Assembly: GCF_016019885.1 (NCBI RefSeq)
Contig: NZ_JAEANY010000001.1
Coordinates: forward strand, 310,001-374,000
Source: Aurantiacibacter sediminis
GTDB taxonomy: Bacteria > Pseudomonadota > Alphaproteobacteria > Sphingomonadales > Sphingomonadaceae
Reading direction: 5' to 3'
Length of the DNA: 64,000 nucleotides
Both the position numbers and the translations under genes were made by a program. A model generated the notes under the pieces. It ran no database searches and was not told the origin of the DNA. It was given only the letters and a program-made list of their open reading frames with translations. This document shows positions 41,404 to 55,120 of the stretch, in pieces (position 1 is the stretch's first letter; each line of letters begins with the position of its first letter).

Positions 41404-42840
41404 ATGCCGCAAAATGACCATGAGGTAGGTCGCGGCCCGGTACGCCCTATGCTCGACCGGCAATTAGGGAGGATTGCGCGCCACAATTCGCAAGGCTTGG
41501 ACCTGAAAGCGGTGAGCTGGGTTTCTCCCGCAGCCTATGCACTGCGCGATGGCGAGGCAGAACCATCAAACGCGGGGGCGCTGCGAAACCTCTCCTTCGT
41601 GGTCAAAGACAATATTGATATCGAGAACGTGCCAACGACAGCCGGGTTCGCGCCCTTGCACGATGCAATGCCGGCCGGAGACGCACGACTGGTATCGCGG
41701 CTGCGCGAAGCTGGTGGCATCCTGCTCGGCAAAGCGAATATGAGCGAGCTCGCCATTTCTAATGATCGGCTGGGGTACTCTTCGACATTCGGGCTTACGC
41801 GCAATCCGCATGACACCAGCCGTAATGCTGCCGGATCGAGCAGTGGAGCCGCTGCCGCCGTTGCCGCAGGTTTTGCCAGCTTTGCAATTGGAACCGACAC
41901 CTCCGGCTCCATTCGCGCGCCGGCCGCGGCGACCGGATGCGTCGGCTTCAGGCCAACGCATGGCTCCGTGCCGCTTGATGGCATCGTCCCGCTCAGTCCA
42001 AGCCTCGATACGGCGGGCCCTATAGCGGCAAACGTAGACACCGCGGCGCGGGTATTTTCCGTCCTAAGGGGCGATGCCGCCCTGAAGACGGAAGATCTGT
42101 CGGCTTCGCTAGAGGTTTCTGGCGAAAAGCTGCTAGAGCAGTCCGCGATCGTCATGATGGCAGGTTTTGATGGTCTTCATCCTGAAATCGGCGCTGCGAT
42201 CAGCAATATATCACGCGAATTGTCGGCAGAGTTGGACATTGTCAGCCAGCATTACGCGGCTCTTTTCGAGCACTCGCCATGGCCGCGACTTGAAAAGCTT
42301 ATCTCGGCGGAATTTGGCTCCGCTCTCTCGCGCTACCTCTCCGGTCTGTCGCGGGGACCAAAAAACCTCAGAGAGCTGGAAGAGCGCCTGCGCTCCGGCA
42401 ATTTTCCGGCAACCAATCGTCTTCGTGTCGAACAGATTTTATCCGCGATTGCGCGGACACGAGAAACGCATGATGACGAGGATGTCTTCAGAAAATTCAA
42501 AGCTTTCCGCGCGCAGGCAAACACGGCCATCAGGCACGCGCTCGATGGGCACAATGCCAGCGTCTTGTGCTTTCCAACCATGCTTTGTCCCGCCTCTCCA
42601 GCCTATGACCAAACGGGCACACCGTATGAGTGCGCTGCGGCGGATCCTTACCTGCCCGGTTATCTCGCATGTGCTGCAGGAGCGCCGGAGATTGCAATTC
42701 CCATCGGGTCCACGCGCGCCGGATTGCCGATCGGCATGTCGATACTCGGCCCGGCAGGCAGCGACGACATGGTGCTACGCATCGCGTCACGACTGGAAGC
42801 ACTGATCGGGCCGCGCGTGGAGCCGCCGGAGCTAGAATAA
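41404..42840 (+). CDS. amidase signature family hydrolase
   Basis: A 478-residue enzyme with the Ser-Ser-Lys triad of the amidase signature family: Lys68 in FVVKDNIDI, the cis-Ser in NAAGSSSGAAAAVAAG (about 141-156) and the nucleophile Ser169 in GTDTSGSIRAPAAATG. Such enzymes hydrolyse many amides; this branch resembles allophanate-hydrolase-like or general amidases and not GatA, because gatB/gatC are absent. The gene has more A/T at third positions than the genes to its left. It ends in a 9-bp head-on overlap with the next gene. Confidence 0.9.
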   Translation: MPQNDHEVGRGPVRPMLDRQLGRIARHNSQGLDLKAVSWVSPAAYALRDGEAEPSNAGALRNLSFVVKDNIDIENVPTTAGFAPLHDAMPAGDARLVSRLREAGGILLGKANMSELAISNDRLGYSSTFGLTRNPHDTSRNAAGSSSGAAAAVAAGFASFAIGTDTSGSIRAPAAATGCVGFRPTHGSVPLDGIVPLSPSLDTAGPIAANVDTAARVFSVLRGDAALKTEDLSASLEVSGEKLLEQSAIVMMAGFDGLHPEIGAAISNISRELSAELDIVSQHYAALFEHSPWPRLEKLISAEFGSALSRYLSGLSRGPKNLRELEERLRSGNFPATNRLRVEQILSAIARTRETHDDEDVFRKFKAFRAQANTAIRHALDGHNASVLCFPTMLCPASPAYDQTGTPYECAAADPYLPGYLACAAGAPEIAIPIGSTRAGLPIGMSILGPAGSDDMVLRIASRLEALIGPRVEPPELE

Positions 42841-44112
42841 TTCGATCCAGCCGATCAGGTGTAAATCCACTATGACGCCCACTAGCGATACGAGCGCGAT
42901 CGCCAAGAGAAACAAATTGATTGCTCGGTCCGATCTTCGCTCCAACGTCATTTGACGCTCTTCTGCCGCAATCCGAAGGGCGCGCAGCAAATACTCGGCA
43001 TGATCCAGCACTTTGGCCACTTGCCACTGCTGGAAAAGCGCATCGCGGATCAGCAGGAACTCATAGCGATAGGTGAACGTCGGCAGGCGCAATTTGTGGT
43101 AATATACGCGCACCTTCGTTTCGAGCGCCCTGATATCAGCGCTTCGCGCTTTCTCTCTTTTCGATAATACGGCTTCGACTTCGCCACACAGCTTGTTCAG
43201 GCTGCCGAACAGCGAATGGGTGATACGGATGAGGAGCCCGTATTCGGCCGCGGCCCGCTCTGGATTGTCGGCGGATACCAGCGAAAAGGCATACCCGATG
43301 AATACAAACCTGTCCCGCGCATTGGACTGGTTCGCGATGGCCCCGCCGCTTGGCGCATAGAGCATGGCGCGGACGGGATCGCATATCATGTTATCGCGAA
43401 CATGATCGCCAAGGTCGCCTGCATACATGACATGCAGTGAATTGACTTCGGGCTTTTCAAAATCGGGCGGGCTTTGGAGCTTCCCGGCGCGGAAATCCTT
43501 CGCAATATTCTCGGACAGACGCGCTTGGAAATCGCCGATCAGCGGCCCCAACTTGCTGCAGAATTGCTCGGTCGATATGTTAATACGTTCATGGCCAAAC
43601 GCTTTGAAAAAGCGCTTATCGCGCCAGCCATCATCCCATTTGACACACACTCTGAGAGACATTTCCCCATTCAGGAATGGGATGATGTCGATGCTTTGAA
43701 GCTGCAATTCTTCAAATGAAAAGCCGTCTTCATCTTCTTGATCGCGCTCTTCGAGTGCGTCTCCGATACCTTGCACTAGCGCATTGCGAACACTGCTTAT
43801 GAGCAGACGCGAAGCCGGGTCTTCAGCTTCCAGGCTGTACCCCGCCAGCGCACCTGCAAGGTCTGAATCTATGAAAACCGCACGTCCGCTCGTCACCTCG
43901 CGCTCAAATGCAAGTTCGCGGCGGCGCCAACCCCCAAGCTCCGCGTAAGCATTGGATTGAATGATGTCCGACATCTCGGGCGGGAAATCTTCGGTACCGA
44001 TAAGGCCCGAATGGCTCGCGAAAATATGCAGGAACAGATCGTTCGCCTTTTCATCGCCGCGATTTTTCGCATCCGACTGACGACGATCACCAGACTTTCG
44101 TGTTTTCCGCAT
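42832..44112 (-). CDS. large protein of unknown function with C-terminal membrane anchor
   Basis: A 426-residue protein, mostly soluble and charged, starting with a very basic, polar head (MRKTRKSGDRRQSDAKNRG). A hydrophobic segment lies at about 399-417 (FLLAIALVSLVGVIVDLHL), so it is probably tail-anchored with the bulk facing the cytoplasm. A central block SLRVCVKWDDGWRDKRFFK and a helical coiled region before the anchor are visible, but no family is recognised. ATG 44112 has GAGGGG about 9 nt upstream. It is a lone gene between an amidase and a NUDIX hydrolase. Confidence 0.75.
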   Translation of the reverse strand: MRKTRKSGDRRQSDAKNRGDEKANDLFLHIFASHSGLIGTEDFPPEMSDIIQSNAYAELGGWRRRELAFEREVTSGRAVFIDSDLAGALAGYSLEAEDPASRLLISSVRNALVQGIGDALEERDQEDEDGFSFEELQLQSIDIIPFLNGEMSLRVCVKWDDGWRDKRFFKAFGHERINISTEQFCSKLGPLIGDFQARLSENIAKDFRAGKLQSPPDFEKPEVNSLHVMYAGDLGDHVRDNMICDPVRAMLYAPSGGAIANQSNARDRFVFIGYAFSLVSADNPERAAAEYGLLIRITHSLFGSLNKLCGEVEAVLSKREKARSADIRALETKVRVYYHKLRLPTFTYRYEFLLIRDALFQQWQVAKVLDHAEYLLRALRIAAEERQMTLERRSDRAINLFLLAIALVSLVGVIVDLHLIGWIELF

Positions 44113-44340
44113 CGATCATGCCCCCTCAAAGCTTGCGGCCTGCCTTGTGCCGAAAAGACTAGCACGCGCTCGCACAGAGACAATCGTAGGACGAAACTTT
44201 GCGGAGATTGCACTCTCGGCGAAACTCGATCGGGTCGTACGGGGCCTGGACCGCGGAAGCCGCCAGACGCGAGGCAAGAGCACGATTTGGCCGGATGCCG
44301 CCAGCTAAAGGTTAGGAAGTTTTTTGGACGAACGGCGCGT

Positions 44341-44763
44341 TTAGGGCCGGCGAGATGCCTGAAGGGTTCGCGCAATCGGAAGGACGTGATCACGGGTCAA
44401 TGGGGCGAGCGGTAGGTTAAGAGCGTCATCAGGGGAGACCCAAACGGCTTCCTCGATCTCTTCCTTCGCTATCGGCAAATGCGAATGACGGATATGGAAA
44501 AGCGCGGCGTCGACAACGCAGTCCGCTTCGTTTGCAGCCGGCGCGAAGAACGTACCGAGATAGCGAAGTCGAGCATCCTGAATCGATAATCCGATCTCTT
44601 CTTTCAGTTCTCTTCGAAGGGCATCCTGCGCCGTTTCTCCCGGCTCGATCTTTCCCCCGGCCTGCATGAACCATTTGGTGTTCCGCTTGCGGACCAAAAG
44701 CAAACGGCCCTTGTCATCGTCGATCAGTGCTGCAGCGATCGTGATAGGAGATAATCCACCCAC
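44341..44763 (-). CDS. NUDIX hydrolase
   Basis: A 140-residue pyrophosphohydrolase with a complete Nudix box GGKIEPGETAQDALRRELKE followed by EIGL (about 36-59), matching GX5EX7REUXEEXGU. The preceding RNTKWFMQAGG is typical of MutT-like proteins that clean nucleoside triphosphates, but the substrate cannot be read from sequence. A 76-bp space separates it from the metallopeptidase-like gene. Confidence 0.92.
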   Translation of the reverse strand: MGGLSPITIAAALIDDDKGRLLLVRKRNTKWFMQAGGKIEPGETAQDALRRELKEEIGLSIQDARLRYLGTFFAPAANEADCVVDAALFHIRHSHLPIAKEEIEEAVWVSPDDALNLPLAPLTRDHVLPIARTLQASRRP

Positions 44764-44839
44764 AGATGCAAATTCCTCGCCTCGAAGCCTTCTTTCAATC
44801 CAGCTGCTTAAATGGTGGTCGCTTTCAAGATCGATTGAT

Positions 44840-45802
44840 CTATCTGGCGGTCAGCAAATCCGTCGCGTTGTCGCCAAAGTGCTCTTCCAACGATGTCATC
44901 ACCGCGCTGTGCGTGATCGTACCGCCTGATGCTGTCAACTGTTCCATCCAAGCGTGCACGGCAGCTTGGCCATAGCGTGCCTCCAGCCGTCTGAAGGCCT
45001 CTTCAGCCGCAGCGTAGTTCGCGACCTCGTTACTCATATCCAGTTCGAAGTCGTCTTGAGTGAACGTGAATGGCCCAGGTGGGGTAAAGAGGGGATCTGT
45101 CTCCATTCTGGCTCGATCTTCAGGCGAAACCTGCCGCAAAATTGCCTCGCGCCTCGGACGTACGCTGCCCCAAGACGCCAAGTCTATTTCCTCATCGACC
45201 GCGGCAAGTCGTGCCATACCATCTGCAGCGGCATGCGCAGCGACAATTGGATCAAGCAGCGGCGCGATTTTGGAGGACACCCAAAACGCATGACCTTCGG
45301 AAACCCATCTCGGAAGCCGCGTACCGTTTCTACCCTGCCAATCGTGGACCTGTTCATGAGGCATCGTTCCGACGACCATCTCGTGGTTAGCTGCATCTAG
45401 CTCACCGTCCGGCTGAACATGGATTGGCCAGCGGACGGCCTGTCCTTCGATGCGGGGCGGGATGTAATCCTGGTCCTGCGTGAAGACGACGCTATGCCAT
45501 TCTGCTCCTTGACGAGCATCGCCGACAATACGTGCCACGGCCGCAATTTGCTCGCCGAGGCAGGCGGCACGTGCGCGAGCGATGCGCTCTGAGCCGGCGT
45601 CAGAGTAGATCAGCATGAAATGGTCGGTGCCTTTCACTATGACACGCAATCGACCCAATTCCTCATCCGAAGCCATATCCTCGATAATTGACAGGTTTGC
45701 TCGCTCCGGCTGCTGCCCGAGCGGCGCGGAGCAGGCGAGCAGGAGCTCGCTATCATATGGTGTCGTGAGCGCAGCCGCTGCGGCAGCCAAAAGAAGGTGC
45801 AT
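44840..45802 (-). CDS. exported gluzincin-like metallopeptidase candidate
   Basis: A 320-residue protein with an N-terminal signal sequence (MHLLLAAAAAALTTP) and a zinc-protease motif HEQVH at 149-153. A Glu at 169 in WVSEGHAFWVS fits the third ligand of gluzincins of the peptidase-MA type (EGxA). The C-terminal helical part NEVANYAAAEEAFRRLEARYG resembles the helix bundle of such proteins. No exact family is recognised. ATG 45802 is preceded by GGGAAAAG, which decides it against longer starts up to 45910. Confidence 0.7.
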   Translation of the reverse strand: MHLLLAAAAAALTTPYDSELLLACSAPLGQQPERANLSIIEDMASDEELGRLRVIVKGTDHFMLIYSDAGSERIARARAACLGEQIAAVARIVGDARQGAEWHSVVFTQDQDYIPPRIEGQAVRWPIHVQPDGELDAANHEMVVGTMPHEQVHDWQGRNGTRLPRWVSEGHAFWVSSKIAPLLDPIVAAHAAADGMARLAAVDEEIDLASWGSVRPRREAILRQVSPEDRARMETDPLFTPPGPFTFTQDDFELDMSNEVANYAAAEEAFRRLEARYGQAAVHAWMEQLTASGGTITHSAVMTSLEEHFGDNATDLLTAR

Positions 45803-45971
45803 GGCAGTCTTTTCCCAAAGGCGTGAGCAAACCGTTCGTCCTATGGCGTCGATCAATTTTCCCCTTCTTTTGTCCTTTTGCAATCCAAAGAACTCGTCCC
45901 GGAAATACATGGGCTTCGCGGTTCAAGTATGACCATTGAATAAGGAAACTTAGGGCGTCGGGTCTTGGTAC

Positions 45972-46679
45972 CTAAGTGCTCTCACACGACTGGCTGATTT
46001 CCTGGCGCAACGGCCCAGCGCCGGAGGCAAGTTCCAAAAAATTCGCTTGGCTAAACACGTAGCGCGAACGACGATTGGGGCTCGTACCGGCTTCCACGAA
46101 CCAGGCTGGCTCTGTGCCTTCATGGGTGCTGTATGGCCCGCTTCCTGACACCTCGATTTCGAATTCGCCGAAGCCGTTGTCATATTGCCAAATAGGTACT
46201 GTAAATTCAGCTCCACTTGCCAAAGGTAGCGAAGCGAAAAGTGGCCCCCAGAGATTGCCGTCCCAAACGGGCACGGAGGTGAGGACATCGATAGGCAGCA
46301 CGCCGCCTTTCGTTTCCCGCGTGCCCGAAATCCTGCCATCCTGATATGTGACCGAAATGCGCTGCCAGCTCTCCGCGTTCCGATCTTCGCCCCGCTCGCT
46401 AACCAGACTGATCGGCAGCAAGCTGCCTCTGTCTACGAAGAATTCATCGCGCATTTCGAACGACCGTGCTGGCACGGCCTGGTGAATCGTTATTCTCCAC
46501 GCGGGGACAAGATCGTGCTCCGCAGCCTCGATTATTTGGACTGTCGCGCCGATCTTTTCATTGTTCAGAAGGATGTCATAGCACGCGCGACCTTCACGGA
46601 GCCGATTGCCATCGACGTCGGAGGGGCTGGCTGGGTCCGCGCTGACGGCCTGAATCAAAAGTAGGACTTCTAACAACAA
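45972..46679 (-). CDS. exported protein of unknown function
   Basis: A 235-residue protein with a short N-terminal signal (LLEVLLLIQAVSADP) and otherwise a beta-rich sequence with two Cys (GRACYDILL near 33 and QSCEST at the end) that could form a disulfide. It loosely resembles DUF3108-like periplasmic proteins in length and pattern, which is only an impression. The start is read as TTG 46679 with GGGAG 7 nt upstream. It precedes the metallopeptidase-like gene on the same strand by 169 bp. Confidence 0.6.
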   Translation of the reverse strand: MLLEVLLLIQAVSADPASPSDVDGNRLREGRACYDILLNNEKIGATVQIIEAAEHDLVPAWRITIHQAVPARSFEMRDEFFVDRGSLLPISLVSERGEDRNAESWQRISVTYQDGRISGTRETKGGVLPIDVLTSVPVWDGNLWGPLFASLPLASGAEFTVPIWQYDNGFGEFEIEVSGSGPYSTHEGTEPAWFVEAGTSPNRRSRYVFSQANFLELASGAGPLRQEISQSCEST

Positions 46680-46770
46680 GGTCGTCTCCCATCACGAAAT
46701 GGACGAAGCGCTATTGGCACTATGGGTCGGGCCTGAAACGCAAACGTCGGACCAGCTGCTGATAAGTCCA

Positions 46771-46792
46771 CGATGTAAAGCGAACTACATCG
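46771..46792. repeat. perfect 7-bp inverted repeat upstream of the four-gene operon
   Basis: CGATGTA at 46771-46777 and TACATCG at 46786-46792 form a perfect inverted repeat with an 8-base spacer, in the 217-bp space before the DJ-1/PfpI gene. It could be an operator for the response regulator encoded in that operon. There is no T run after it. Confidence 0.4.
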
Positions 46793-46896
46793 GCTGCCCT
46801 CACTTGCGAAAGCATCCGCAAGGCAAATGCTGAGCTGCATCTCATTTGACTCAATAAAGGTATCAGCGACGCCAAGAGCTATTCGGAGTCCGACTT

Positions 46897-47943
46897 GTGA
46901 AACGATTTTTGAGAACCTTTTTCCGCATCAGCCTCGTTATAGTCGGTGTTCTAACCGTGACTTTCGCGGCGTGGTGGATCAGCATCGATCTTGACAGCCA
47001 GCCACTAGCAGATCCCGAAACCAGCCCCGGCGATCTCGCCTTCCTTGCGAATGCGGTCGAAGAAGACCGCGGCACCATCCTGGCGGTTGTGACCAGTACG
47101 GAACGTGCCGGAGACGGAATAAACGCGGGCTATGAGCTGACCGAAATGGCGCGCGCCTATTACGTGTTCCGAGCCAACGGTTACGACGTGGTGGTAGCGA
47201 GTCCGCAGGGCGGCCGGGCACCGGTGAACATAGACGAAGAACTGACGGAGTACGACTACGCATTCCTGAATGAGGCGGAGGCGCAAGGACTTGTCGAAGC
47301 GACGCTTCGGGTCGCAGATGTCGATCCAGCAAATTACGACGCGGTTTATTTCGTTGGAGGCAAGGGCGCGATGTTCGATTTTTCCGACAATCCAGACATC
47401 CAAGCTATTGCCTCGCAGATTTACGATACGGGCGGTGTGGTCGGCGCAGTCTGCCACGGCCCTGCCGCGCTCATCGGCGTCCAGCTCGCAGATGGTACAA
47501 CGCTTCTCGAAAACAAATCAGTCGCCGGCTTCAGCAATGAGGAAGAGCTTTTCATCATCCCGGATTCTCGCGACGTCTTTCCCTACCTTTTGGAGGACGG
47601 CCTGAGGGAAGCCGCGCAGAACTACAGCGAGGCGCCGAAATATCTCGACCATACAATAACGGACGGCAGGCTGGTCACGGGCCAAAATCCTTGGTCGACC
47701 TGGACGGTCGCCGAAGGCATGATCCGGGCGCTGGGACACGAACCGGTAGAGCGGGAGATTTCGTCGGAAGAAAAGGCAATTGCGCTGCTGGCAACCTATC
47801 ATGCGCAAGGAATGGATGCAGCGCTTGCGGACAGGGAAAGCCAATCGGGAAGCGACAAGCGCCTGATCTTGCTCCACGCTCTTATTGCCTTGATGGAAGG
47901 GCAACCCGGAGTGGCATTGCAGATACAAAGGCTCGCACATTGA
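46897..47943 (+). CDS. membrane-anchored DJ-1/PfpI family protein
   Basis: A 348-residue protein with one N-terminal membrane segment (about 10-28) and a class-I glutamine-amidotransferase-like DJ-1/PfpI domain (about 60-285). The nucleophile elbow is AVCHGPAAL with Cys186-His187, and the assisting acid is Glu80 in AGYELTEMARAYYVF; this resembles Hsp31-type glyoxalases and chaperones. A C-terminal helical tail of about 60 residues is extra. GTG 46897 has GGAG 8 nt upstream. Its stop overlaps the response-regulator start (TTGA). Confidence 0.88.
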   Translation: MKRFLRTFFRISLVIVGVLTVTFAAWWISIDLDSQPLADPETSPGDLAFLANAVEEDRGTILAVVTSTERAGDGINAGYELTEMARAYYVFRANGYDVVVASPQGGRAPVNIDEELTEYDYAFLNEAEAQGLVEATLRVADVDPANYDAVYFVGGKGAMFDFSDNPDIQAIASQIYDTGGVVGAVCHGPAALIGVQLADGTTLLENKSVAGFSNEEELFIIPDSRDVFPYLLEDGLREAAQNYSEAPKYLDHTITDGRLVTGQNPWSTWTVAEGMIRALGHEPVEREISSEEKAIALLATYHAQGMDAALADRESQSGSDKRLILLHALIALMEGQPGVALQIQRLAH

Positions 47944-48641
47944 ACCCAAGCTCTCCGCCGAATCTCAGGCTGTTACTTGTAGAGGACGATATCGATGTAG
48001 CGGCCAGCCTCGCGCAATACCTCGAGGCGCGCGACCTGCGCATCGATTTCGCCTACTCTTTGCAAGATGCTCGCCAGTCTCTCGCGGTGAGAACACCTGA
48101 TGTGATCGTACTGGATGTGGAGCTTCCCGATGGAAACGGGATAGACTTCTGTCGACAGCTGTCGGAGCAAGGGTCTCTTCCAGCACCTGTCCTGTTTCTC
48201 ACAGCTCGCGGAACGCTTGAAGACCGGCTTGCGGGCTTCGGGGCCGGTGCAGTCGATTATATCGTAAAACCGTTCGAGCCTGCCGAGCTCCTCGCTCGTA
48301 TCGAGGCGGTCCACCGACGGCCTGGATTGGGCCCTTACAAAGAGGTGATCGAAGCGGGATCTTTTACGTTGGAAAGCAATACCGGCCTGTTGCGGCGCGG
48401 CGAGGTACATTTGCAACTGAAGAAGAGCGCATTGCTCATCGTGCGATCTTTGATGGAAAACGCGCCCGGCACGGTCTCGCGCGACCAGCTCAGCGATCGC
48501 ATCTGGGAAGGAGAAGTGCCGGACAGCGATCCATTGCGCGCGCACATACATAGCCTGCGATTACAGTTGCGCGGAACGTTCGATTGTGACCCGGTCAAGG
48601 TCGTCCGGAACCTCGGCTATTGCTGGGATGGCCGGCCTTGA
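47940..48641 (+). CDS. OmpR-type response regulator
   Basis: A 233-residue regulator with a receiver domain (acidic pair in VEDD at 15-17, phosphorylated Asp59 in VIVLDVELPDG, Lys110 in YIVKPF) and a C-terminal winged helix (about 135-230, ending VRNLGYCWDG). No ATG or GTG lies near the domain start; the TTG at 47940 overlaps the previous stop as TTGA and gives an exact domain fit. It pairs with the histidine kinase that overlaps its end. Confidence 0.92.
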   Translation: MNPSSPPNLRLLLVEDDIDVAASLAQYLEARDLRIDFAYSLQDARQSLAVRTPDVIVLDVELPDGNGIDFCRQLSEQGSLPAPVLFLTARGTLEDRLAGFGAGAVDYIVKPFEPAELLARIEAVHRRPGLGPYKEVIEAGSFTLESNTGLLRRGEVHLQLKKSALLIVRSLMENAPGTVSRDQLSDRIWEGEVPDSDPLRAHIHSLRLQLRGTFDCDPVKVVRNLGYCWDGRP

Positions 48642-49843
48642 AGCGGCGCACACTTCGTTTCGCGCTCTTGCGTTACTGGATGGGGTTTGCCTTTTTGACA
48701 GGGCTGCTCACGATCCTATGCGCCGGTATCGTCGCCTATTTCGTTGAAGACCGCATTATCGATCACTTGGTGCAATCGACCGCCCGCGATCTAATTTCGG
48801 ACACGATTGAGCCCGGTGATCTGCCGTCCGGTTTCTCAATATACTCAACCGAGGCGGCCCCGCCAGAGATCGAGATAGCGATGGCGGAGAAGCAATCCGG
48901 CGAGGGCTCCGAGTTTCGCATGGCAGACGGATCCTATTTCCATGCGACCGCCATAAGCCGCGATGGAAATCGCCAATATCTGATCTACGATGCCTCGGAT
49001 GCGCTTGTCGTAACACCGATCGCCCTGACTGCGGCATGGATGTCGCTCGGGTCGCTTTTCACCTTTGTCCTTATCGCCGCAATCGTCGCAAACAGTATCG
49101 GTAGGCGTGTCGCGAAAAGGAGTGAGCGCCTGCTCAGCGACCTCCAACAGTGCCGAACGCCGGACGAAGTCTCCGCCCTTGCCGAGCGACAGGACATTGC
49201 AGATGTTTCCGCCTTCCTGACGGCGCACGCAGAGGTTTGGCACAAGCGCACGCAGGCCGTACGGCAACAGGAAAATACCGTAAGCTTCCTCGCACACGAA
49301 TTGCGGACGCCTCTGCAATCAGCGCGCGCGAGCATTGCTGTCATTCGCGATGATGTTCCGTCAAGCGCTGCACTCGATCGACTGGATCGCGCGATCTCGC
49401 GGCTTACGCGGGCATCGCAGGCGACCCTCTTTATCGGCGCAGATGTCGAACAACTGGCAAGTTCGAGGCTTTCTGTTTTCGCCATATGGGGAGACTTGCG
49501 AACTGAATACGCGCCCCTGGCAGCGCAGCGCGGCCAATATATCGCCGCTCCAAAAGGTTCGGACGCTTCCGTTGAAGCGCCTCGCGAGGCCGTCGAGGCA
49601 GCGATCGCTAACCTTGTAGGCAACGCGATTAGTCACGGGTCACCTGGGGAAATTTCATTAGTTGGCTTCCGGGACCACTTTGCCATCCGCAACCCCGTAT
49701 CTTCGTCACCCAATCCAGGCTTCGGCCTCGGCATGACAATCCTTGAGCGGTTGCTGGGCAAACTTGGGTGGAGACTTGAGACCGCAAGGTCCGAACAGGA
49801 ATTCGAAGTCCGGATCTTTTTCGAAAAGGCTATTACATCATGA
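48638..49843 (+). CDS. sensor histidine kinase
   Basis: A 401-residue inner-membrane kinase. Two membrane segments (about 13-36 and 125-150) flank a sensor domain of about 90 residues, followed by a HAMP-like linker, the H box SFLAHELRTPLQS with His220, the N box ANLVGNAISHG and a short G box FGLGMTILERLLG. The D/F box is reduced. TTG 48638 overlaps the regulator stop (TTGA), the second such overlap in this operon. The end overlaps the amidohydrolase start as ATGA. The signal is unknown. Confidence 0.92.
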   Translation: MKRRTLRFALLRYWMGFAFLTGLLTILCAGIVAYFVEDRIIDHLVQSTARDLISDTIEPGDLPSGFSIYSTEAAPPEIEIAMAEKQSGEGSEFRMADGSYFHATAISRDGNRQYLIYDASDALVVTPIALTAAWMSLGSLFTFVLIAAIVANSIGRRVAKRSERLLSDLQQCRTPDEVSALAERQDIADVSAFLTAHAEVWHKRTQAVRQQENTVSFLAHELRTPLQSARASIAVIRDDVPSSAALDRLDRAISRLTRASQATLFIGADVEQLASSRLSVFAIWGDLRTEYAPLAAQRGQYIAAPKGSDASVEAPREAVEAAIANLVGNAISHGSPGEISLVGFRDHFAIRNPVSSSPNPGFGLGMTILERLLGKLGWRLETARSEQEFEVRIFFEKAITS

Positions 49844-51333
49844 TTTGGCTAAAACGGATTCTGAAAGGTGTTGGAATCGCGTTAGCGACCGTGATTTTGC
49901 TTTTTGCGGTGGCGATATGGTGGCCGAAGCCATCGGCACCGCTTCCCGACGCTGCGCAGGACCGGCTGCTGATCAACGTTCGCATTGTCGATGTCGAAGA
50001 CGGTACCACGGGCGAATTGACACGACTGCGGATTTCGGCAGGCCGCATCGCTGCGATCGGACCTGGCCTTCGACCGATGGACGATGAGCAGGTCTTGGAC
50101 GGTGAAGGCGGATTTCTCATACCTGGCCTGTGGGACATGCATGTCCACACCTTCCAATCTTCTCCGCAGACACACTTTCCGCTCTGGATAGCCAACGGGG
50201 TAACACAGGTCCGGGACATGATGGACTGCCCGACGGACAGTGACAGCCTGATTGCTTGTTACGAAGACAAGCAGCGATGGAACGCGCAGGTGGCAGCCGG
50301 GAGCATGGCAGCGCCCACCATCGTGGAAACTGCGAGCTTCTATCTGGCCAATGCCGACCTTACGCCGCGCGAGGTCGTAAACCGCATTTCGAACTATGAC
50401 GAGCGTGGGCTCGAGGCGATCAAGGTCTACAATCAGCTATCGCGAGACGCGTATTTTGCAGCCGCGCGAGAAAGCCAGCGGCGCGGTCTGCGCCTTGTCG
50501 GCCATTTACCGCAAGCAGTATCGCTCGAAGAGGCATTGGAGGCTGGCCAAGACAGTTTCGAACATGCGCACCTGTTACCCCGCGCGTGCATGGAACAGGA
50601 GGCGGAATGGAGATCGGGAGAACTGGAGAGCCTTTCGCCGACGGAACGGGTAGAGACCTTCATCGAGGATCACGACACGGAGCGCTGCGGCGAACTGCTC
50701 GATGCGCTCTCCCGTTCCGGCAGTTGGTACGTTCCCACACATGTCACGCGTGAGGATGATGTCCGCGCTTTTGATCCGGCAGAAACCGAGAACCGCGCGC
50801 TCGCTTTTCTGGATCCGCTTTCGGCATGGGCCTGGAACGACGACCAATCCGCTCTGCGCAATTCCTATCCAGGAGAGCGCGGCGCGCAAGCAATCGACGC
50901 ATACTTCAAACACGGCCTCGACCTGACCGGCAGGGCACATGAGGCAGGGGTCCGAATCCTGGTCGGCACCGATACTATTGCCGGCGGGTTGAGGTATCAT
51001 GACGAGTTGGCGCATCTGGTGTCGGCGGGCATGGCCCCTGCAGAGGTATTGCGTGCAGCGACGCTCGAAGCGGCGCGCTATGCTGGCCAGGACCAAGAGG
51101 CCGGAAGCGTCGCTATCGGCAAACGTGGCGACCTGGTTTTACTGGAGGCTAATCCCCTGCGAGATATTCGGAACACGCAGACCATACGCGCAGTCTTGCA
51201 GGACGGCAGGCTTTATGACCCGGATACACTCGATGAACTGGCAGCCTTCGCCCACGAACAAGCAAATGCGCCGCACAACTGGGCGAAGCTCCTGTGGGGA
51301 TTTGCCCGCAGCTCAGTGAATGCTGAAATGTGA
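49840..51333 (+). CDS. membrane-anchored amidohydrolase
   Basis: A 497-residue amidohydrolase-superfamily protein with an N-terminal membrane anchor (about 9-27) that places the enzyme outside the cytoplasm. The metal motif is IPGLWDMHVHTF (His101, His103). Further candidates follow in order: Lys in EAIKVYNQL, His in LVGHLPQ and FEHAHLL, and Asp in ILVGTDTIAGG. It resembles the imidazolonepropionase-like prolidase and dipeptidase group. Start ATG 49840 overlaps the kinase stop, so it is the fourth coupled gene of the operon. Confidence 0.9.
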   Translation: MIWLKRILKGVGIALATVILLFAVAIWWPKPSAPLPDAAQDRLLINVRIVDVEDGTTGELTRLRISAGRIAAIGPGLRPMDDEQVLDGEGGFLIPGLWDMHVHTFQSSPQTHFPLWIANGVTQVRDMMDCPTDSDSLIACYEDKQRWNAQVAAGSMAAPTIVETASFYLANADLTPREVVNRISNYDERGLEAIKVYNQLSRDAYFAAARESQRRGLRLVGHLPQAVSLEEALEAGQDSFEHAHLLPRACMEQEAEWRSGELESLSPTERVETFIEDHDTERCGELLDALSRSGSWYVPTHVTREDDVRAFDPAETENRALAFLDPLSAWAWNDDQSALRNSYPGERGAQAIDAYFKHGLDLTGRAHEAGVRILVGTDTIAGGLRYHDELAHLVSAGMAPAEVLRAATLEAARYAGQDQEAGSVAIGKRGDLVLLEANPLRDIRNTQTIRAVLQDGRLYDPDTLDELAAFAHEQANAPHNWAKLLWGFARSSVNAEM

Positions 51334-51596
51334 TCGAGATGGGTTCACAGAGGAAACAGGCTAAGCGAACGAAGGATGCCGAGCAACACGCGGCCAGATC
51401 CGTCGTTTCTCTCTACGAGAATAAGGACGCGTCGTGGTCGCACAATGCCAGCCTGGAAAACCACTGGCTGGACCTTTCCTAGAAAAGCGCGAGCCATCAT
51501 CGAAGATTTTGGAGATAGCCACGGAATTCCCAAAAGGATCGCCAGCCATAGACTAGGCTGGGATGCACCTTGCCAAAAGTATGGGAAGCAGAAGCG

Positions 51597-52079
51597 ATGG
51601 AAATTTTCTCGATAAGGTTGGAAGACGGTCCTGAAGACCGCCAATTCGTTGAGAGCCTGGATGCGAGGTTGGTCGATGTCATTGATTTACACGCACGTAC
51701 GAGGGAAGAGATCGCTGCGTTCCAAGCGTCTTTCACCTCGACTGCTTGGAGCGAAGAGAATGCATCGGGTGCGACTTTCTTAGCCGAGAACGAAGCAGGA
51801 CATAGGGTCGGATACGTGCACGTTCGCGAGGGAGTTGACGACATCCTCGAAGAACCGTGCGGCTATATCGCTCTCTTGGCAGTCTCGAAGAATTGCGAGG
51901 GTAAAGGTGTAGCGCAGGCCCTCGTTCGGAGGGCGGAAGAATGGACAGCGGAAGCAGGTTTTTCACGCCTTACACTTGACGTCTTTAGCAGCAACACGCG
52001 CGCACTTTCCTTTTACGACCGACAAGGATTTCGGGCGGAGACTGTCCGCCTTGTCAAGACGTTGCGAGAGGCGAGATAG
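51597..52079 (+). CDS. GNAT family N-acetyltransferase
   Basis: A 160-residue acetyltransferase. The acetyl-CoA binding region is CGYIALLAVSKNCEGKGVAQ (about 91-110), with the Q/RxxGxG/A motif present in altered form as N-C-E-G-K-G-V-A, and the C-terminal LDVFSSNTRALSFYDRQGF is typical. ATG 51597 has GGAAG about 8 nt upstream. The acceptor is unknown; antibiotic or protein N-termini are possible. It lies 263 bp after the four-gene operon, in a loosely packed stretch. Confidence 0.88.
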   Translation: MEIFSIRLEDGPEDRQFVESLDARLVDVIDLHARTREEIAAFQASFTSTAWSEENASGATFLAENEAGHRVGYVHVREGVDDILEEPCGYIALLAVSKNCEGKGVAQALVRRAEEWTAEAGFSRLTLDVFSSNTRALSFYDRQGFRAETVRLVKTLREAR

Positions 52080-52132
52080 AAGCAGCTTTTCGCTTCAAGC
52101 CAAAAAATCTGATGTGGCCCTGGAGGTAGAGT

Positions 52133-52525
52133 ATGAAGCGACGCATTTCACTGACCGCGATCCTCGTCGACGAATATGATCGAGCGCTCGATTTCTTCGT
52201 CGGGAAGCTCGGCTTCGAGATCGTGCAAGACAAGCGCCTATCCGAAGAGAAGCGATGGGTGGTGATAACGCCGTCGAAGGGAGAAGGCGGCCTGTTATTG
52301 GCTCGCGCTTCCGATGATGAACAGCGCAAGGCAGTTGGAAATCAAAGCGGCGGCCGCGTTTTCCTGTTTCTCGAGACAGACAACTTTGACCGCGATCATG
52401 CCGAATTCTCCAGTCGCGGAGTCCATTTCGTCGAGGAACCCAGACGCGAGGAATATGGAAAGGTTGCTGTCTTTGAAGATTTATACGGCAATCGCTGGGA
52501 TCTGATTGAAAGCCCGACATCTTAG
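52133..52525 (+). CDS. VOC (glyoxalase/dioxygenase superfamily) protein
   Basis: A 130-residue protein with the paired beta-alpha-beta-beta-beta layout of the vicinal oxygen chelate fold: DEYDRALDFFVGKLGFEIV at the start and AVFEDLYGNRWDLIE at the end. Single-domain members act as homodimers in glyoxalase, fosfomycin-resistance or ring-cleavage roles; the exact role is open. It lies 53 bp after the GNAT gene and may share its transcript. Confidence 0.88.
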   Translation: MKRRISLTAILVDEYDRALDFFVGKLGFEIVQDKRLSEEKRWVVITPSKGEGGLLLARASDDEQRKAVGNQSGGRVFLFLETDNFDRDHAEFSSRGVHFVEEPRREEYGKVAVFEDLYGNRWDLIESPTS

Positions 52526-52572
52526 CCGGCAAAGGATAATGCGGCGGCCATCGCGTCAACGGTGATCGAAGA

Positions 52573-53127
52573 CTAATTTCGCTCGAATGATAGTCGAACC
52601 TCCTCGGTTGTCTTGAGCGTCGCAATTTTGCCCTCAAGATATTTCAGCGTCACGCGTCCATGCTCTTCATCTCCTGTGTCGACGCAATCTGTTACAACAA
52701 CCACTTCGAGATCTCTTTGATACCCGTCAATTGCTGCCATCCTGATGCATGCATGTGTATTTATTCCGCATAAAGTGATCTCCTCGATGGCAAGCGCTTC
52801 GAGATGTCGGTCGAGAGGCGTTCCGAAAAAGGCAGAGTAGCGTTTTTTGAGGATTACCTCGTCGGAATCCAAGCGATCAAGGTCCGAGTGGATCTTTGCG
52901 CCTTCACTTCCCTTGATGTTGATCCGGATATCTTTTTTACGCATCTCCAAAAATGCATCGCTTAGGTCCGGCTCGAACTCCTGCCTAACCCAAACCACCG
53001 GATATCCGGTGGCGCGGAAATGCTTGATCAGCAAGTTTATGCGCCGGATCAAAGCGCGCCTATCGGCTGCTGGCCATTCGTCAAGAAAATCGTTGAGCAT
53101 ATCAATTACGAGTAGCACCCGACGCAT
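52573..53127 (-). CDS. isochorismatase-like cysteine hydrolase
   Basis: A 184-residue hydrolase with the Asp-Lys-Cys triad of the isochorismatase superfamily: Asp9 in LLVIDMLNDF, Lys in VILKKRYSAF (94 or 95) and Cys127 in CGINTHACIRMAA with the usual cis-peptide context before it. Members hydrolyse nicotinamide, N-carbamoyl amines or isochorismate. Catalytic parts are intact. It is convergent with the VOC gene. Confidence 0.9.
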   Translation of the reverse strand: MRRVLLVIDMLNDFLDEWPAADRRALIRRINLLIKHFRATGYPVVWVRQEFEPDLSDAFLEMRKKDIRINIKGSEGAKIHSDLDRLDSDEVILKKRYSAFFGTPLDRHLEALAIEEITLCGINTHACIRMAAIDGYQRDLEVVVVTDCVDTGDEEHGRVTLKYLEGKIATLKTTEEVRLSFERN

Positions 53128-53728
53128 TATTCCTCCTCGCGACGACTTCGGGAAGGCGCGGGTGTTGACCCGCTTTCCCTGCCGGCGCAGTCATGAAAGA
53201 TCATAACGATCTCACTGGCCTGCCCAGAGAACTTAAATATTCTATAGTCTAGCGAGCAATCTGCAAACGAAACTACGGTAGCTATTCTTGCCAAAGAAGG
53301 CTCGACCGCAAATCGAATTTTTGGTCAGTGCGACTCATTTGACAATCCGTCGCTAGGCGGCGCGTGAAGTCGTGATTGATGAAGAGGGCTTGGCAGTTTT
53401 GAAACAAAATGCCTGGCACGTCCTCGATGCTCTTTTATCTCTGCCCGGCTTTGACGAGATGAAAATGATCAAGGCCACGGGTGGCACTTTGGAAGCCCTG
53501 TTTCTCGTTTGGACGCGATGACCTGCGTTCGCATTGCGTAGGGAGAGGAATCTGGGAGAACTTGCTCGATGATTGGTATCGGGAGACCGTTTCTGCGCCT
53601 GTATCAGACCACCTGGAAATGAATGTGCGCCATCGTCATTGGGGTTCGCCGATCATTCCTCGCCAGCCGATGACCGACGCTCAATGTTTATCAGTTGCGA
53701 AAAATCCTTGAGGAGCGGAGCGCTACCC
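53128..53728. other. 600-bp stretch without a convincing gene
   Basis: The stretch between two minus-strand genes is A/T-richer than the surroundings and holds only short open frames, one of 49 codons at 53372-53521 and an overlapping one of 76 codons at 53481-53711. Neither matches a known family. It looks like decayed coding DNA. Confidence 0.6.
53372..53521 (+). CDS. possible small gene or gene remnant, 49 codons
   Basis: A GTG-initiated frame reading VIDEEGLAVLKQNAWHVLDA and continuing as an ordinary-looking, amphipathic peptide to a TGA. The composition resembles real protein more than random translation. There is no ribosome-binding site ahead of the GTG, and no family is recognised, so a truncated remnant is likelier than a functional gene. 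Confidence 0.22.
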   Translation: MIDEEGLAVLKQNAWHVLDALLSLPGFDEMKMIKATGGTLEALFLVWTR

Positions 53729-54463
53729 TCAATGCCAAGCAAACGCTCGTTCCAGTTCGCGGACAGCATCGGAGCGGTAGCATTTGCCGTGCGAAAGGAT
53801 GATCTGTTCAGGATGCCAATCAAGCATCTGCTGAATGCCCTCACCCAGCGCGGATTTATGCTTTCGCGCGGCATGACGAATTTCCAATGACGGTTGGCCG
53901 CTGGGCCCAGTCGCACCACCCGCCTTGAGCAAGAACCGAGTCAGTCTCCTACTGGCCCTGCTCGCTTCAAAGTTCTGCATTAAATCGGTTACAATCAGCG
54001 TGCGCGAGGGTTCGTGGAAAAAAACTACTTCCTGGAAGTTCCCGAGATCGATGAGTTTCGAGGGAAGTCCAACCCGCGAGAGCACATCCGGATCATTTTT
54101 TATCACTTCACACTGAGCTTTCACATTTTTAGCCGCAGTGCGAGGAGCGAATACCGCGGCAGAGGCATGCGCCAACGCCCAATCGTCTATGTGAAGATAA
54201 TGATAGCTATTCGGGGCGACGAGCTTCGTTATGGTCCCAAGTGCAGCCAAGGCTGTGCTTAGCTGCTCGGAATGACATACCGGGGAGTGAAGTAGAAGAC
54301 TCCCATCATCATTGCGGACCACTGTCATCCTAGTGGGACACGGTATGGGTACTCCGGCCAGCCGATAGGTCACTTCTGGACCTTCGACAATCCAAATGTT
54401 TTCGCCCCATGCGATCGGTCGTAACTGAGGCTCGTACGGAGCATATCCTGGTGAGACAGACAT
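53729..54463 (-). CDS. DUF4336 domain protein
   Basis: A 244-residue protein matching the DUF4336 pattern, a divergent relative of the metallo-beta-lactamase fold: YEPQLRPIAWGENIWIVEGPE at about 11-31, PCPTRMTVVRNDDGSLLLHSP near 42-62, then APNSYHYLHIDDWALAHASA and a C-terminal ILSHGKCY. The usual HxHxDH motif of the parent fold is not visible, as is common in this DUF. ATG 54463 is preferred to the TTG just before it. Function unknown. Confidence 0.82.
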   Translation of the reverse strand: MSVSPGYAPYEPQLRPIAWGENIWIVEGPEVTYRLAGVPIPCPTRMTVVRNDDGSLLLHSPVCHSEQLSTALAALGTITKLVAPNSYHYLHIDDWALAHASAAVFAPRTAAKNVKAQCEVIKNDPDVLSRVGLPSKLIDLGNFQEVVFFHEPSRTLIVTDLMQNFEASRASRRLTRFLLKAGGATGPSGQPSLEIRHAARKHKSALGEGIQQMLDWHPEQIILSHGKCYRSDAVRELERAFAWH

Positions 54464-54629
54464 CAACCGAAACGCCGCCCGTCTGACTTTTCTCTAAAAC
54501 GCCCGATCTTTGGCATTGCACCTACCTTAAATATTTCGCCATCGAGATTGCGATGAAACATCAGCCAACGACCTCACTTGCGGTAGCAATCGCTCATTCT
54601 CGCGATGCCAAGCAGCGAATATCCAATCG

Positions 54630-55046
54630 CTACGTAAGCAGGAAGAAGAAGCAAACCGCGATGCTCGCGAGAAGCATCCAAACCGAGCTCCCAATCGCCA
54701 GGATCGAAACAACCCGCTCCTTCGCCTTGGAGCTGCTAAATCCCTTTCCAGCAATGGGCAGAGCTTCGCTTGCGCCAAAGGCCGCAGCTAGAAGCAGGCT
54801 AAGGATCAGAATACCGAATGATGCGATAAGCGATATCGCCAAGGGCAAAGATGCCCAATCGGCAATTCCAAAATGGGGCCAGAAAAGGCCGAACGCGACC
54901 AGCGCAATACCTGCTTGGACTGCAGTAGTATGTGCCGATAGTCCCATTCGCGGATTGCGGAAACGAGGGATCGCGGCGCCGATTGCCAGGCCAAGTGTGA
55001 AAACCATGAAGCCTGCCTTGCCAAGAAGGAGCTCGACCGCGCCCAT
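54630..55046 (-). CDS. four-helix membrane protein, hydroxylaminobenzene-mutase-like
   Basis: A 138-residue protein with four membrane segments. The block RNPRMGLSAHTTAVQAGIAL with its Pro-Arg-x-x-Leu-x-x-His pattern recalls the HabA/HabB hydroxylaminobenzene mutase family and related uncharacterised membrane proteins; the enzyme role is not shown. ATG 55046 is preceded by AAGGGG at 7 nt. The longer start at 55094 overlaps the -10 region of the shared promoter motif and is rejected. It is divergent from the TetR gene and carries the same upstream motif as the NTF2-like gene at 55847. Confidence 0.65.
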   Translation of the reverse strand: MGAVELLLGKAGFMVFTLGLAIGAAIPRFRNPRMGLSAHTTAVQAGIALVAFGLFWPHFGIADWASLPLAISLIASFGILILSLLLAAAFGASEALPIAGKGFSSSKAKERVVSILAIGSSVWMLLASIAVCFFFLLT

Positions 55047-55085
55047 ATTGAGACCCCTTGCAAACCTCGCTATCCCAAAAACCTC

Positions 55086-55120
55086 GGTCGGCATTTATTG
55101 ACCAGCGGTCGGTAAGTCAA
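55086..55120 (-). promoter_or_regulatory. promoter/operator motif copy 1 (TetR regulon candidate)
   Basis: On the minus strand the site reads TTGACTTACCGACCGCT, then 12 bases, then CCGACC. The same arrangement occurs at 55777-55811 on the plus strand, differing at two of the first 17 bases. TTGACT can serve as a -35 box with TAAATG 17 bases on. An imperfect palindrome GACC-AGC-GGTC lies inside it. It is 74 bp upstream of the membrane protein start and just ahead of the TetR gene. Confidence 0.6.

Follow-up and report, generated by a model that had tools for sequence, protein, structure and literature searches.

What does a two-component system do when it is enclosed between a DJ-1/PfpI protein and an amidohydrolase? 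The question is raised by four genes on the forward strand at 46897-51333 of a 64,000-nucleotide stretch of Aurantiacibacter sediminis DNA (contig NZ_JAEANY010000001.1, positions 310,001 to 374,000), here called the window. A DJ-1/PfpI gene (46897-47943, GTG start, 348 amino acids; PF01965, DJ-1/PfpI) is followed by genes for an OmpR/PhoB-type response regulator (RR; 47940-48641, TTG start, 233 amino acids; PF00072, Response_reg, and PF00486, Trans_reg_C), a sensor histidine kinase (HK; 48638-49843, TTG start, 401 amino acids; PF00512, HisKA) and an amidohydrolase (49840-51333, ATG start, 497 amino acids; PF01979, Amidohydro_1). The original prediction, made from the sequence, had described these genes as joined by 4-base overlaps reading TTGA, TTGA and ATGA; the open reading frames (ORFs) and a reading of the junctions confirmed this. 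The overlaps at RR and HK depend on the TTG starts, and the ORF list gives alternative in-frame starts at 47691 and 48620. Short overlaps also occur in relatives (-4/-4 at locus L223; -8/-4 at L161, L165 and L243). We find that the unit is a variant of a recurrent, apparently undescribed module in which a two-component system is combined with predicted exported effector enzymes.

Recurrence of DJ-1 with signaling genes

A search of other genomes for the same gene order had been proposed together with the original prediction, and it found DJ-1, RR and HK recurring together and all four genes in one genome (G336); the outcome named in advance as a refutation, homologues that never co-occur, was therefore not seen. 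Counts for named genomes refer to the best 80 of at least 513 relatives of the DJ-1 query. RR and HK genes adjoined DJ-1 in 21 of these 80 loci, all Pseudomonadota; an AraC-type gene did so in 41 (39 Bacteroidota and 2 without an assigned phylum), and neither was present, by the criteria used, in 18. Expressed per phylum, the RR and HK pair was found in 21/34 Pseudomonadota loci and the AraC gene in 39/44 Bacteroidota loci. All 41 AraC-type genes were on the DJ-1 strand, and 39 of them encoded five or more membrane-like segments. The type of regulator is swapped between phyla, with two-component systems in Pseudomonadota and membrane AraC proteins in Bacteroidota. The 18 loci with neither included one with an amidohydrolase between DJ-1 and AraC (L123), two with a MarR-like gene (L148, L155) and one with an FtsX/MacB permease (L118). 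A third kind of partner, also among the 18, was seen in Ekhidna lutea, where an adenylate/guanylate cyclase-domain protein with a hydrophobic front (L095:9119-10201) is encoded directly behind an exported-type DJ-1.

Searches of defined groups gave the same pairing. When the kinase was the query in 60 relatives, mostly generic kinases were returned (18-32% identity), and linkage was hence traced through DJ-1, which adjoined RR and HK in four of the 60 (G046, G040, G052 and G037). In Lysobacteraceae, the family of Vulcaniibacterium, DJ-1 was found in 21/247 genomes at 1e-60, and 16 of the 21 had adjoining RR and HK genes. In the window's own family, there were 15 DJ-1 matches other than the window's; of these, 12 were examined (G359, G294 and G443 left out), and the pair adjoined 7 of the 12. 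Gene orders in 43 linked loci were DJ1-RR-HK (21), RR-HK-DJ1 (16) and divergent (6), and the three-gene association was seen in Lysobacterales, Burkholderiales, Alteromonadales, Cellvibrionales and the taxonomic order of the window itself. Many of these loci belong to close relatives (Colwellia, Aquimarina, Pseudoxanthomonas) and cannot be treated as independent. For the two-component label, the DJ-1 tree requires at least 8 changes compared to a shuffled mean of 34.7; for the AraC label, it requires at least 3 compared to 33.8. No description of a DJ-1 and two-component pairing was found among the titles and abstract starts listed in searches of mainly open-access literature.

The window DJ-1 protein begins with a hydrophobic segment (best 19-residue mean 2.06). 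Such a segment precedes the core in 110/110 aligned DJ-1 rows, the window included (best 15-residue mean of at least 1.8), and in 0/6 soluble controls; this count took up to 71 residues before the first core strand and may include residues preceding the true start. The window protein is probably exported and anchored in the membrane, with its catalytic part outside the cytoplasm. None of the six homologues lacking a hydrophobic N-terminus (L083, L084, L088, L225, L226 and L228) had adjoining RR and HK genes. The putative catalytic residues E83, C186 and H187 are invariant in the 110 rows and align with the Glu and Cys-His of Hsp31-class structures. The structural model (predicted local distance difference test, pLDDT, 96.6) has a first long helix, the DJ-1 fold and added C-terminal helices (residues ~290-347), and its closest folds are 4p5p, 1u9c, yeast Hsp31 and C. 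albicans glyoxalase III. Fold and Glu plus Cys-His together place the protein in the Hsp31/Glx3 class of the DJ-1/PfpI superfamily. A different architecture, with an extra domain in front, was observed in three DJ-1 proteins (L085:5629-6753, L086:5603-6727 and L087:6260-7429); the one scanned, from L085, contained Lumazine_bd_2. In G040 and, judged by similarity, in G052 and G046, these front-domain genes lie beside an AraC-type gene.

The RR has the phospho-acceptor D59 and K110, and its receiver and winged-helix output domains are those of the OmpR/PhoB type. The HK scored 26.8 bits for PF00512 (cut-off, 26.9), and H220 of HELRTP, an N-box and GFGLG are present in its sequence. In the structural model, which is complete (pLDDT 89.9), two predicted membrane helices flank a sensor of ~85 amino acids with strands between residues 66 and 118. 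Residues E37, D38, E92 and H102 between the membrane helices are invariant across 45 aligned kinases, and a Pfam scan of these 45 kinases found no sensor family in that stretch. The window HK has N- and G2-type motifs, but IRNPVSSS stands where a DxGxG motif is usual in kinases; Lysobacteraceae kinases displayed in the alignment resemble it.

The nearest copies of the window DJ-1 were from Lysobacterales and Oxalobacteraceae (at most 59% identity), and copies from its own family reached at most 43%. The window RR and HK each fell in an 18-row clade (Shimodaira-Hasegawa-like approximate likelihood-ratio test, SH-aLRT, 100), the other rows of which, apart from those of one unclassified metagenome-assembled genome, were obtained in the Lysobacteraceae searches. 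The kinases form two deep subfamilies; we refer to this clade as subfamily A and to the other as B. Two Oxalobacteraceae loci (L098, L105) and one Lysobacteraceae locus (L229) combine a Lysobacterales-type DJ-1 with RR and HK of subfamily B; therefore, DJ-1 and RR-HK became associated, or reassociated, on more than one occasion. Distances of RR and HK were correlated at 0.92. The trees were of a quick kind, and long branches were flagged for the window RR and for joins in the DJ-1 and HK trees.

A shared promoter box and the role of DJ-1

A direct-repeat operator at the target promoter is usual, although not strictly defining, for OmpR/PhoB-type systems. A candidate was first noticed between the divergent DJ-1 and RR-HK genes of sphingomonads, as a half-site TTTSAC paired at 11 bp (TTTSAC-N5-TTTSAC, hereafter the box). 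In subfamily B, 21 of 27 upstream regions carried the box (spacing 11) with a match of at least 11/12; counts at spacings 8, 9, 10, 12, 13, 14 and 15 were 0, 0, 0, 2, 1, 1 and 0, and shuffled upstream sequences gave a mean of 0.1. Across the subfamily B loci, 26 boxes were found in 7.3 kb of upstream sequence compared to 22 in the remaining 402 kb. TTTSAC was derived from part of the same 27 promoters, so that the 21/27 is partly in-sample, as are genome-scan matches on those promoters; the out-of-sample evidence consists of 19 other DJ-1 genes and the genome-scan matches elsewhere. These 19, Pseudomonadota DJ-1 genes with no adjoining pair of this type, carried the box in 13 cases (shuffled mean 0.2), L097 and L124 among them having kinase-like ORFs of other types nearby. 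The box was found at 0/42 AraC-linked DJ-1 genes.

In whole-genome scans, the pattern TTTGAC-N5-TTTGACR was matched 10 times across nine sphingomonad genomes, eight of which had a match; the reversed pattern gave 0. Eight of these sites were at DJ-1 or RR promoters, one was ~40 bp before an amidohydrolase gene, which in G280 is on a different contig from the DJ-1 of that genome, and one was inside an ORF. The pattern TTTCACNTTNNTTTCAC gave 14 matches in eight of 11 genomes: 5 at DJ-1, 3 at YbbAP-like operons for FtsX-type ATP-binding cassette (ABC) transporters, 3 at the gene for a secreted-looking protein of ~243 residues and 3 elsewhere. An ABC-FtsX operon of G101 that is unlinked to DJ-1 carries the box at 11/12. 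In Alteromonas KUL49 (L299:37-4655), a second exported-type DJ-1 lies behind an operon resembling YbbAP, with a 12/12 box before each. Loci with a YbbP of the canonical type had an upstream box in 0/16 cases, and L308 has one behind the gene. The presence of a shared box at these genes suggests that some bacteria respond through them, in a dedicated way, to a cell-surface compound.

The secreted-looking protein of ~240 residues was seen at L291:726-1454, L292:1567-2316 and L295:723-1454, with a homologue, judged by eye, at L097:9015-9734. No Pfam family was found in the three of these four copies that were scanned (L291, L292 and L097). Its promoter contains a TTTCAC repeat in three Colwellia genomes, and its gene adjoins DJ-1 in an Alteromonas.

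In the window, the upstream intergenic region (46680-46896, + strand), the presumed promoter, contains a single half-site TTTGAC at 46845-46850 and no 11-bp pair at 10/12 or better; the window RR may read another sequence. A de novo repeat search in the subfamily comprising Lysobacteraceae and the window scored spacing 11 above 9, 10 and 12-14, with no convincing copy in the window. DJ-1-first operons were also considered as a stand-alone proof of the box and rejected: a 7-of-8 screen gave 8/22 at spacing 11, yet 4-7 at many other spacings.

These data bear on whether DJ-1 stands at the input or the output of the circuit. The original prediction had offered DJ-1 as a possible sensor partner. 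As a periplasmic accessory, an exported DJ-1 would set kinase activity by binding or converting the signal, its reactive cysteine being one possible means. DJ-1 is indeed constant while its partner changes from HK and RR to membrane AraC to the cyclase-domain protein of L095, and periplasmic accessories acting on two-component systems have reported precedents in DbfQ with DbfRS (PMC12714742) and QseG with QseE (PMC6075780). However, the 13/19 DJ-1 promoters that carry the box with no such kinase adjoining, and catalytic residues that do not vary in 110 rows, point to a controlled enzyme, and we regard an input role as unlikely. DJ-1 is more likely an output of the regulator than a sensor, because DJ-1 promoters carry the box, of the subfamily B type, even where no such kinase adjoins; the sensor-partner idea is accordingly less supported than DJ-1 as a target. 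The two roles are compatible and do not exclude each other.

The amidohydrolase and its accessory setting

The amidohydrolase contains the motifs HVH 101, IKVY 194, VGHL 220, EHAH 241 and GTDT 376, which we take to be the HxH, Lys, His, His and Asp metal ligands of the prolidase-like amidohydrolase superfamily, and by these ligands the window protein belongs to that superfamily. Its N-terminal hydrophobic segment (best 19-residue mean 2.42) indicates that it too is probably membrane-anchored with the catalytic part outside the cytoplasm. The topology originally predicted for both enzymes agrees with these hydrophobic N-termini.

At 1e-60, the amidohydrolase was found in 15/397 genomes of the family. 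In G336 (L217), DJ-1 faces an RR-HK-amidohydrolase unit. The amidohydrolases of the window and G336 fall in one six-row clade (support 99), in which the G336 copy groups with that of G072 (support 94) and not with the window's. Genomes with the amidohydrolase and no RR and HK pair beside it are G110, G235, G313, G072 and G180; in G110, a kinase-like ORF (52 bits) is ~1 kb away on the other strand and an RR-like ORF is ~4 kb away. We infer that the amidohydrolase is a late addition that probably joined such cassettes twice, in the window and in G336; two captures are a simpler reading than one ancestral link with losses. In G445, an RR-HK-alpha/beta hydrolase-amidohydrolase unit faces an ABC-FtsX pair resembling YbbAP (L263:3847-9036); its amidohydrolase is more distant than that of G336, and no DJ-1 match was found in this genome at 1e-40. 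The hydrolase thus seems exchangeable in such cassettes. Another arrangement was observed in Aquimarina sp. AU474, where an amidohydrolase gene (L123:9102-10661) lies 6 bp behind DJ-1 and before an AraC gene; this amidohydrolase is that genome's best match to the window protein (29%).

A divergent gene on the - strand (45972-46679) lies 5' of the unit, and on the other side a gap of 236 bp separates the unit from the next + strand gene, which begins at 51570. From this layout, a single four-gene transcript from 46897-51333 is plausible. A sigma-70 scan found 0 promoter-like sites for the unit, and a terminator scan found 11 terminator-like sites compared to a shuffled mean of 5.0. Four of these are on the + strand within the RR and amidohydrolase genes, for example at 49872-49899 at the amidohydrolase start.

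The GC content at third codon positions (GC3) of the genes measured was 0.66-0.75 up to 41.4 kb and 0.54-0.65 at 41.4-55.1 kb. The run of low-GC3 genes at 42832-55101 is likely one accessory region; its genes at 42832-44112, 44840-45910 and 54553-55101 have no Pfam family. The segment from dxs to heparinase (29.7-36.7 kb), which lies to the left of the unit, matched Qipengyuania citrea at 72% over 90% with gene order kept. In 36 congeners, several of them incomplete genomes, any DJ-1 match (E<=0.001) was found in six, at no more than 38% identity, and the three strongest had no two-component genes beside them. At 1e-40, DJ-1 was present in 15/397 family genomes, and the only member of the window's genus among these was the window's own genome. 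The cassette is accessory, because congener matches to DJ-1 are few and distant and only the window's genome in its genus matches at 1e-40; the accessory setting named in the original prediction is borne out. Viral contigs scanned with the DJ-1 protein gave no match. Plasmid records contained DJ-1 relatives, none of them over 80% of the query, as well as relatives of the amidohydrolase (88 records, 21 over 80% of the query) and of the kinase (19 records), all below 60% identity.

An accessory region of this kind raises the question of whether same-strand genes came to lie together by chance. Both the low GC3 and the location of the closest amidohydrolase homologues elsewhere would fit a chance juxtaposition. 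However, DJ-1, RR and HK recur together in four other taxonomic orders and in that of the window, and the window's genome has only 9 Trans_reg_C matches; therefore, chance adjacency should be near one percent by estimate. We consider this explanation highly improbable, and for the first three genes it is already disfavored.

Proposed function and comparison with known systems

Among the relatives examined, the commoner extra partner is a YbbAP-like ABC transporter rather than the amidohydrolase. It adjoins DJ-1 in L077, L219-L222, L227 and L299. YbbP is the only match of the DJ-1-linked permease among solved structures (PDB), and the permease is a distant paralogue, at 73-87 bits to YbbP compared to 194 for the canonical copy of the window's genome. 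This partner also bears on a nutritional reading, in which the sensor would detect a peptide or amide that the two hydrolases degrade for food. The solved relatives of the amidohydrolase include prolidase-like and arginine carboxypeptidase enzymes, and a gene resembling an S41 peptidase precedes RR-HK-DJ1 in G040, G052 and G037 (Pfam on the G052 copy only). Against scavenging, the recurrent extra partner in the relatives examined is a permease with YbbP, not an importer, as its only solved relative; we find scavenging quite unlikely.

The explanation that we favor, and consider reasonably probable, is a horizontally acquired, kinase-controlled envelope module in which two membrane-anchored hydrolases act against a compound. 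The HK would use its small unclassified sensor domain to detect a signal within the inner membrane or immediately outside it, and would phosphorylate the RR, which would switch on its own operon; autoregulation of the window operon is proposed by analogy with subfamily B. The operon would place two hydrolases, a Glu-Cys-His enzyme of the DJ-1/Hsp31 type and a metal-dependent amidohydrolase, on the outer face of the inner membrane, the amidohydrolase having been recruited to the same RR and HK control as DJ-1. They would degrade a compound associated with the membrane or able to reach the periplasm, candidates being toxic amides or peptides and reactive carbonyls; a glyoxalase acting on methylglyoxal is one option for DJ-1. 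In relatives, such a regulator appears to control DJ-1 and a YbbAP-like transporter. By analogy with YbbAP-TesA, this transporter could extract the compound from the membrane and pass it on to the enzyme. The window version has no such transporter and instead has the amidohydrolase. The analogy suggests hydrolysis of membrane-associated compounds, and in the case of the window it goes no further than an analogy. The earlier idea of sensing and detoxifying an extracytoplasmic compound fits this module in kind but does not extend to a specific compound.

Several results weigh against this explanation. HATPase_c was undetected by Pfam in the window HK, though 39/45 of the kinases show one. In subfamily A, to which the window RR and HK belong, the box was found in 1/18 upstream regions, and that one is not the window's. 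The box also stands upstream of other ORFs in the same loci (17/380, a count that may include shared intergenic regions or real targets), and the reversed-pattern control of the TTTCACNTTNNTTTCAC scan gave 3 matches. DJ-1 distances were correlated with those of RR at only 0.45 and of HK at 0.53. In the 5 genomes with the closest amidohydrolase homologues (43-58%), no RR and HK pair adjoins the gene. Finally, a YbbAP-like transporter of the DJ-1-linked type was looked for in the window's genome and not found; the only YbbP-like gene there is a canonical one.

We also put forward, tentatively and with somewhat less than even confidence, a wider proposal. A second class of YbbAP-like transporters would have exported DJ-1 as its periplasmic hydrolase, in an extract-and-break-down defense under the control of its own two-component system through TTTSAC-N5-TTTSAC. 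DJ-1 could be replaced or joined by an amidohydrolase or an alpha/beta hydrolase, and the two-component system could be replaced by membrane AraC in Bacteroidota; the window would be an ABC-less offshoot with an anchored amidohydrolase. A branch of exported-type DJ-1, found in two phyla, is linked to membrane signaling; in several lineages, gene position and the box also link it to a YbbAP-like transporter. The question of what exported DJ-1 does becomes directly testable.

DJ-1 superfamily enzymes have mostly been studied as cytosolic glyoxalases, deglycases or chaperones. The window DJ-1 has the fold and the Glu and Cys-His in common with yeast Hsp31, C. albicans glyoxalase III and Francisella REP24. 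Matches to these stop at window residue 276-280, near the ends of those chains, and unlike them the window protein is modeled with an additional N-terminal membrane helix and, past the matched part, ~60 further helical residues. Likewise, the amidohydrolase shares Amidohydro_1 and the metal-ligand motifs with solved prolidase-like relatives (Xaa-Pro dipeptidase, arginine carboxypeptidase and ochratoxinase); it differs from them in its predicted N-terminal membrane anchor and its two-component operon, and mostly local stretches match the solved chains.

BceRS-BceAB-type modules combine a two-component system with an ABC transporter, and the BceRS-type kinase is not known to have an extracytoplasmic sensor domain. 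Some relatives of the window unit likewise couple an OmpR-type pair to an FtsX-type ABC transporter, and a BceAB-S structure was among the fold matches of the HK. In contrast, the window HK is modeled with an extracytoplasmic domain of ~85 residues, the window unit has no ABC genes, and the constant partner is DJ-1.

The single canonical-type YbbP gene of the window's genome adjoins a GDSL hydrolase gene, which is the layout reported for YbbAP-TesA (PMC12646458). Compared to YbbAP-TesA, the hydrolase in relatives is of the DJ-1/Hsp31 type and not GDSL, and a two-component system is attached; the window unit itself has no linked YbbAP-like transporter. In common with YbbAP-TesA, the exported-type hydrolase of relatives is co-located with a YbbP-like permease or shares its box, following the same logic of a transporter with a periplasmic hydrolase, and the module is a candidate for YbbAP-like transporter action with hydrolases other than TesA.

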